A DNA stretch of 49,401 nucleotides, taken from Desulfohalovibrio reitneri (GTDB taxonomy: Bacteria; Desulfobacterota; Desulfovibrionia; Desulfovibrionales; Desulfovibrionaceae). The stretch lies in NCBI RefSeq assembly GCF_000711295.1, contig NZ_JOMJ01000001.1, positions 1 through 49,401 of the forward strand, given 5' to 3'. Shown piece after piece: positions 29,503-29,918 of the stretch (position 1 is its first letter; each line of letters begins with the position of its first letter). A program made the position numbers and the translations under genes. The notes under the pieces were generated by a model. The model was not told the origin of the DNA and ran no database searches. It saw nothing but the letters and a program-made list of their open reading frames with translations.

Positions 29503-29589
29503 GCCGGGATGGCGGAATTGGTAGACGCAGCGGACTCAAAATCCGCCGGTAGCAATACCTTGTGGGTTCGAGTCCCACTCCCGGTACCA
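29503..29589 (+). tRNA. tRNA-Leu (anticodon CAA)
   Basis: Cloverleaf: acceptor arm GCCGGGA with TCCCGGT, D loop AATTGGTAGACGC, anticodon stem GCGGA/TCCGC with loop CTCAAAA (anticodon CAA), long variable arm, T arm GTGGG/CCCAC with TTCGAGT, and encoded CCA. The long variable arm and the GACGC in the D arm fit leucine. The first base pair is G-U. Confidence 0.96.
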
Positions 29590-29617: not shown

Positions 29618-29662
29618 AAAAGCCCGCTTGGCCGCATCGAAGAATGCGCAGCCGGGCTTTTT
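29618..29662 (+). terminator. Intrinsic terminator after tRNA-Leu
   Basis: AAAAGCCCG (29618-29626) pairs with CGGGCTTTT (29653-29661) with an inner GCAT/ATGC stem, ending in a T run. Confidence 0.85.
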
Positions 29663-29715
29663 GTCTCCCTGTTGTCCCCAATGGGTATGCGATGGAGTGA
29701 TGCCGGAAAAACGGA

Positions 29716-29838
29716 ATGAGGCGGGTGGTGGGGCCTCCCAGTCCGGGCTGAGCCCGGCAACCCCACATATCGCTCCGCACCGAGTGGTTCGGTGGTGCTA
29801 CGGCCGGGAGATTCATCACCGTGTCGCACCCGCCTCAT
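29716..29838. ncRNA. Compact structured RNA candidate closed by a perfect 12-bp stem
   Basis: ATGAGGCGGGTG (29716-29727) is exactly complementary to CACCCGCCTCAT (29827-29838). Inside are GTGGGG/CCCCAC closing a CCGGGCTgaGCCCGG hairpin, a CACCGA/TCGGTG hairpin (about 29779-29794), and CCTCCC that can pair with GGGAG (29796-29800), a possible pseudoknot. The pairing holds for either strand. A T-tract in CCGTTTTTCC follows the minus-strand reading. It may be a ncRNA (prophage C4-type RNA is one candidate to test) or a mobile-element end. I see no protein gene in it. Confidence 0.5.
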
Positions 29839-29918
29839 AAAAAAACGTAGTGCATGAAACGGCCGAGGTAAATTGGCGGCCAGTGGAGATTTTTCGGAAT
29901 AATGCCAGGAAGGGGACG

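Follow-up and report, generated by a model that had tools for sequence, protein, structure and literature searches.

A probable structured RNA gene of Mu-like phages, with a predicted promoter of its own, and its stand-alone copy in Desulfohalovibrio reitneri

The stretch of Desulfohalovibrio reitneri DNA analysed here (49,401 nucleotides, hereafter the window) carries on its minus strand, at positions 29715..29840, a probable gene for a structured RNA, whose 5′ end lies near 29839 and 3′ end near 29716. The assignment is based on homologues and on a match to covariance model R3 (85.8 bits; the window sequence is itself among the 60 used to build this model). As judged from sequence comparison, the RNA family is carried by more than 200 stretches from several phyla, with strong covariation, and its members share an outer stem and a three-helix junction, in which a loop-loop pseudoknot joins two of the helices. 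An earlier note had seen a compact, possibly pseudoknotted RNA at 29716-29838; this observation is confirmed as real and more than chance, because homologues are present in 8 of 59 genomes and covariation is found in the inner part of the outer stem, in two inner helices and in the pseudoknot. We consider the chances somewhat better than even that the family represents an independently transcribed, stand-alone, phage-derived structured RNA gene that acts in trans, an “RNA moron”.

The outer stem (P1) is formed by minus-strand segments 29827..29838 (5′ strand) and 29716..29727 (3′ strand). As the earlier note claimed, it is a perfect 12-bp stem in the window, compared to medians of 7-9 contiguous pairs in other copies, and in 60 aligned copies changes on both sides are seen in 11 of the 12 pairs. 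Three helices, likewise on the minus strand, lie inside P1: a hairpin closed by ACGG/CCGT (plus-strand letters; 29800..29822), in which 100% of alignment cells are paired and nearly invariant; a second hairpin (29772..29798), consisting of two outer pairs and a CACCGA/TCGGTG stem, with 96.9% of cells paired and both-side changes in 6 of 7 pairs; and a GTGGGG/CCCCAC helix (29728..29766), with 99.7% of cells paired and both-side changes in 4 of 6 pairs. The loop of the ACGG/CCGT hairpin (29806-29810) provides one side of the pseudoknot, while the loop of the GTGGGG/CCCCAC helix contains the other side (29735-29739) and an optional hairpin (29743-29757). The pseudoknot, which spans 29735..29810, pairs CTCCC (29735-29739) with GGGAG (29806-29810; plus-strand letters), so the complementarity behind the CCTCCC:GGGAG pairing proposed earlier is present; it is paired in all 60 aligned copies and complementary in 37 of 37 copies of a second set. 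Both hairpins described in the note are also found in the window, at 29743-29757 and 29778-29794; the former (CCGGGC/GCCCGG) turned out to be optional in the family, being absent from 30 of the 60 copies. Positions 29716-29838 fold more stably than dinucleotide shuffles on both strands, with z-scores of -3.42 for the plus strand and -3.08 for the minus strand.

When the 60 aligned copies are read on the minus strand, 92.6% of cells pair (72.1% after shuffling). Covariation scores 0.545 compared with 0.154 for shuffled alignments, none of 500 shuffles reaches the former value, and sliding the partner columns by 1-3 positions lowers the score to 0.117 or less. The four outermost P1 pairs, perfect in the window, fail in 18 to 37 of the 60 copies. 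The ACGG/CCGT helix is paired in all 60 and barely varies; the support for it therefore comes from pairing only, and covariation says little about it. Since most of the 60 copies were chosen by a motif that fixes part of the pseudoknot, the pseudoknot test was repeated on 37 copies retrieved by a search model that contains no pseudoknot (12 of the 37 are shared with the 60, and the two weakest matches, L299 and L300, are left out). A complementary five-base partner in or beside the P2 loop was present in 37 of 37 copies, 35 of them in register, with eight pairings, compared with a mean of 16.8 and a maximum of 23 when partners were shuffled among the 37 copies. A base triple suggested by the plus-strand letters resolves into G·U pairs on the minus strand. 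A coding function was considered as well: an AUG is invariant on the minus strand in the 60 copies, yet a shared coding frame seems improbable, as loop lengths of 11, 12 and >20 nt break it. Covariation, the pseudoknot test and the phage context described below all support the original description of a compact, pseudoknotted, non-coding, phage-related RNA.

The fold had initially been read on the plus strand, and in this respect the description had to be reversed. With the four outermost P1 pairs left out, most apparent mismatches on the plus strand are A·C (65 cells, compared with 9 of G·T); on the minus strand the 65 A·C cells become G·U, and pairing increases from 95.0 to 98.1%. Upstream of P1 on the same minus strand, a σ70-type promoter was predicted in 103 of 115 copies located between the Mu-like F and G genes (F-G copies) and in 70 of the 83 located elsewhere, among the matches listed, with flanks shorter than 80 nt and near-identical flanks excluded. 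The best -10 element starts 16-26 nt before a conserved GYGAC in those copies (22-24% in shuffles), and the spacer is 17 bp long in 83 of the 103 F-G copies and in 45 of the 70 others. Since the A·C cells turn into G·U and the upstream promoter points independently to the same strand, we take the minus strand to be the RNA strand, the plus-strand letters being its complement. Judging from its position, the predicted promoter would start transcription at the outer stem. The same evidence bears on whether the repeat acts instead as a DNA element, e.g., a cruciform or a single-stranded recombination site, a reading that would suit the mobile contexts and the serine recombinases found beside some copies. 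We regard this as most improbable, since the fixed one-strand upstream promoter together with a pseudoknot realised by eight in-register pairings points to RNA; the excess of G-U pairs alone would not exclude single-stranded DNA.

In the window, the predicted promoter-like element is TTTACC-17-TACGTT (29844..29872, minus strand), with position and spacing as in the family. It is weak, matching 8 of 12 consensus letters and falling below the threshold of a strict scan, which reported neither a promoter nor a terminator for the window copy. Between the tRNA-Leu gene and the RNA, a G+C-rich inverted repeat flanked by runs of A and T (29618..29664) was seen by eye; it is possibly a shared terminator of tRNA-Leu and the RNA, and received no terminator score in the strict scan. 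Across the family, TTTT occurs in the 20 nt after the 3′ end in 37 of 128 F-G copies, 11 of 43 stand-alone copies and 4 of 33 copies near other Mu-like genes, and farther downstream in only 10, 2 and 2 copies, respectively.

The RNA family appears to be new, although the broad kind, a phage-borne structured RNA, is already known. The earlier note could not place the RNA in a known family, and a scan against 4227 Rfam families agreed, returning none at gathering threshold; the sole matches at E <= 10 in the element, sR38 and sot2652, were far below their gathering scores, and Rfam 15 found only tRNA in the whole window. The suggestion of a C4-type antisense RNA was not borne out: RF01695 gave no match at gathering or at E <= 10, and nothing in the eight RNA-bearing genomes. 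Among the 59 genomes it matched only in G050, where no copy of our RNA was found. This is a true C4 in a genome of the same order (L012 1501-1582, i.e., G050:C100:5394-5475; 56 bits). C4 resembles our RNA in being phage-borne, structured and non-coding, with an outer stem and inner hairpins; the printed C4 consensus and the L012 copy differ from it in layout and sequence. Mu-gpT-DE is a structured RNA near Mu-like head genes and to that extent similar, but it occupies a different place. Its model, RF03012 (PMC7657543), matched neither the window nor any of 17 loci, of which 10 or more are Mu-like phage stretches. By model search, the RNA belongs to none of the C4, phi29 packaging RNA and Mu-gpT-DE families, though it may work in a similar way. 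The prophage small RNA svsR is reportedly an independent RNA gene in a prophage like the RNA studied here, but its prophage is lambdoid (PMC12803456). A literature search, whose scope did not extend to a 2017 motif survey and most subscription papers, found no description of the RNA.

Blastn found homologues in 8 of the 59 genomes, the window's own included, each from a different genus, and a covariance model search retrieved the same eight. A degenerate motif of the most conserved part retrieved at least 120 stretches of viral contigs and at least 119 of species genomes (15 of 254 motif matches could not be parsed). The genome matches listed come from alpha-, beta- and gammaproteobacteria, Desulfobacterota, Nitrospirae, Verrucomicrobia and others, and many are metagenome assemblies. 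Minus-strand model R3 found copies in 11 of 395 genomes of the window's phylum and in 18 of 295 genomes of the family of G059 (Tropicibacter), the centre genome being counted in both cases. The RNA is about 95-125 nt long across the family. Plasmids yielded no real match (two short chance matches only), nor did E. coli in one query; blastn with three copies against 50,697 phage records gave nothing beyond one 26-nt partial match. No second copy was found in the window's genome by either blastn or the covariance model.

The main home of the RNA is the gap between genes F and G of Mu-like phages, with further copies in Mu-like mini-elements and as single copies in hosts. In three phage loci annotated with Pfam and PHROGs, the order is Portal_Mu, Phage_Mu_F, the RNA and a homologue of Mu G (Phage_tail_S), with a head protease beyond G in one of the three. 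Among 120 viral matches listed, 112 adjoin F and/or G, 6 are near other Mu-like genes and 2 near none; the corresponding numbers for 122 genome matches listed are 45, 31 and 46; and among seven Desulfovibrionaceae matches counted, one adjoins F, two are near other Mu-like genes and four, including the window copy, near none. The Desulfovibrionaceae count leaves out L007, L008 and L009, all three of which have portal or G matches nearby, and a few records are doubled across the sets (L155 = L003, L170 = L004). The context labels come from our own gene finder and clusters, and the “other Mu-like” labels of L164 and L192 may be wrong.

Two features by which a moron may be recognized are seen here. 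Inside the phage operon an independent promoter is predicted for 103 of 115 F-G copies. Related phages appear to be free of the RNA: in D108, DMS3, JBD67 and vB_ThpS-P1 the F and G genes directly adjoin or overlap, leaving no room for it, and R3 found no copy in 3-6 kb stretches of these four phages. Across 63% of the query, the F protein of vB_ThpS-P1 shares 59% identity with the F protein of a phage that carries the RNA. Likewise, R3 found no copy in 3-6 kb stretches of RS1, RcapMu, EBPR siphovirus 4, Curvibacter phage TJ1 and RcWaterboi. Another antisense promoter-like element with a 17-bp spacer was observed between F and G in RcapMu (L255 3731-3822), Rhodovulum phage RS1 (L253 3755-3820) and EBPR siphovirus 4 (L258 3734-3836); the gap sequence is RNA-like yet different, has no R3 match and was not counted as a member of the family.

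Where it lies between F and G, the RNA runs antisense to the late operon. It could accordingly be a cis-acting antisense device, in which the minus-strand transcript, or a fold in the late mRNA, tunes F or G. The RNA fills the gap, the start of G is often close beyond it, and the antisense promoter-like elements of RcapMu, RS1 and EBPR siphovirus 4 occupy the same gap. However, 91 of 249 classified matches among those listed lie elsewhere, in either orientation relative to their neighbours, and the promoter is kept in 70 of 83 non-redundant copies outside F-G. Control of G in cis is unlikely because of these other locations, and we consider a cis-acting device improbable.

Some carriers are small. 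Locus L340 contains, at 7.5-15.1 kb, a compact Mu-like element with a repressor, MuA, MuB, gemA, capsid T, protease I, the RNA and Mor, the names being based on clusters and visual inspection; genes for terminase, portal, F, G or tail were not seen in it. The capsid gene appears to be split in two. Similar compact elements, mostly in alphaproteobacteria, were seen in part in L137, L156, L184, L186, L196, L202, L231 and L246. These elements are possibly capsid-bearing transposable satellites.

The location among head genes calls to mind the packaging RNA of phi29, which is about 120 nt long, has an outer stem, two loops able to pair and its own promoter, and is found in a head-gene setting. All of these features (size, outer stem, loop pairing, an own promoter, here a predicted one, and the head-gene setting) recur in our RNA, which differs in that it has no Rfam match, belongs to an unrelated phage group and has copies outside phages. 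A virion-assembly or DNA-packaging RNA of this type would be expressed from a promoter of its own and would bind the portal, the terminase or head proteins, and the stand-alone copies would be remnants or decoys. Its regular place in the terminase-portal-F-[RNA]-G-protease-capsid block is consistent with such a role, and so is its retention in mini-elements with capsid T and protease I, where terminase, portal and tail genes were not seen. Against it, four Mu-like isolates, including a close one, lack the RNA at the F-G position, many copies lie beside unrelated genes, and Rfam gives no match. On balance, we think the packaging explanation decidedly unlikely.

The window copy has no Mu-like gene in the surrounding 3.1 kb, and all Mu portal and G matches of its genome are on another contig. 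Among the matches listed, it is nearest to phage copy L052 (83% identity), and for this reason most likely derived from a Mu-like phage. With a predicted promoter of only 8 of 12 consensus letters, it could be decaying. The surroundings, the weak promoter and the separate contig would fit a phage remnant without present function at this locus, which is compatible with a functional family; conversely, helices, pseudoknot and conserved loops have all been preserved in it (85.8 bits), and the 12-bp outer stem is longer than usual. We consider a remnant possible but doubtful. For our preferred reading of a stand-alone RNA gene, the outer stem speaks both ways: six or more contiguous P1 pairs are present in most stand-alone copies (36 of 47), but this is a smaller share than among F-G copies (145 of 153; copies near other Mu-like genes, 31 of 34).

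The earlier note pointed to the adjacent tRNA as a common integration site. The tRNA-Leu gene (29503-29589) is real, and no other tRNA was found in the window. Across the family, however, just 6 of 276 copies have a predicted tRNA within 600 nt; the proximity of tRNA-Leu therefore looks incidental. Matches to this tRNA-Leu are present in 47 of 59 genomes, with an RNA copy near one only in the window's genome. Additional matches to the 3′ part of tRNA-Leu alone (G016:C39:224385-224447 and similar ones in G007, G013 and G023) are what elements integrated at that tRNA might leave behind; none was found in the window's genome.

No shared partner protein was found among 149 of 200 candidate neighbours at 60 sites, which leave out six stand-alone copies, including the window's; one place occurs twice among the sites (L208/L333), and a few of them are Mu-like mini-elements (e.g., L339 and L340). 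The commonest neighbour Pfam families are resolvases (5), DNA methylases (4) and Mu-like protease I (4), and most of the families listed are neither phage nor defence families. PADLOC ranked mad2 first, followed by methyltransferase models. Of ten neighbours picked by hand, five belong by their matches to families of a defence type, including a type IIG restriction enzyme, a Dsr2-like protein and Cas8e; the other five had no defence family match. Geothermobacter-type stand-alone copies L321, L326 and L352 are probably located beside a UmuC-type gene of the Y-family DNA polymerases; three neighbours of this kind appear in the Pfam counts, which do not name the loci.

Some copies are located near CRISPR arrays. 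Within stretches of up to 8 kb per locus, arrays are present in 6 of 45 stand-alone genome loci versus 1 of 74 others (Fisher p = 0.012; matches listed), and also near L004. Of 28 places from the model search, which overlap in part with the motif set, three have an array 0.9-2.1 kb away, one of these adjoining F. The RNA lies 1-154 nt from arrays in L354, L355, L356, L357 and L358, and stand-alone copy L351 is also close to one. In L331, one CRISPR repeat ends at the RNA; in L358, a degenerate repeat seems, by eye, to abut it, and in L348 a single repeat is found 85 nt from it. In L348, L354, L355 and L358 (type I-E-like), the RNA is presumably at the older end of the array, assuming a general rule on repeat orientation. 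Spacers of ten arrays (several hundred) were compared with the RNA plus 60 nt on each side. The best match of the ten arrays was 11 nt, shared by an L354 spacer and the stretch between the -35 and -10 elements of the RNA's predicted promoter and not located at the spacer start; the best of 144 shuffles for the L354 array reaches 9, and shuffled spacers of the L351 array reach 11. The apparent CRISPR association comes from a few loci.

These loci raise the possibility that the RNA is linked to CRISPR, for instance as a toxin of the CreT type that a CRISPR-like antitoxin keeps in check. We know of no common fold of CreT RNAs. The CreT/CreA systems, as reported (PMC8501985, PMC10097628, PMC9458426), resemble ours in combining a small RNA with its own promoter, here near CRISPR in some loci. 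The five loci with arrays 1-154 nt away, the repeats at or near the RNA in L331, L358 and L348, and the 11-nt match in the L354 promoter, longer than in any shuffle for that array, would agree with such a link; most copies, however, have no array in the stretch examined, and the 11-nt match is the best from ten arrays with several hundred spacers, is not at the spacer start and is equalled in length by L351 shuffles. We find a CreT-type function very improbable.

The explanation that we favour thus remains that of an RNA moron. Its transcription in the lysogen or host would need no other phage genes, and the RNA would act in trans as a structured, probably protein-bound molecule, and the benefit to its carrier would lie in conflict with other phages or mobile elements. 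The conservation of the loops and the pseudoknot suggests a structured, protein-bound role rather than that of a simple base-pairing regulator. As to function, we would place phage-phage or phage-host conflict first, since it fits the accessory pattern and some stand-alone settings, and virion assembly second, since it fits the place among head genes and the retention in mini-elements with capsid and protease only. Both may be combined in a tentative and, in our view, unlikely proposal: Mu-like phages, Mu-like satellites with a capsid gene and host defence loci would have in common one cassette, consisting of the promoter and the RNA, which would be an RNA-only weapon of mobile elements, the folded RNA acting on virion assembly or DNA packaging. 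If so, phages would need the RNA or use it against rivals, and satellites and hosts would exploit it. To our knowledge, few structured RNAs with trans roles in phages have been described. The RNA, its strand, its predicted promoter and its pseudoknot are defined well enough for direct tests, and an RNA whose settings include virion genes, small Mu-like elements and sometimes the vicinity of CRISPR arrays may offer a concrete test case for RNA-based phage-phage or phage-host conflict.
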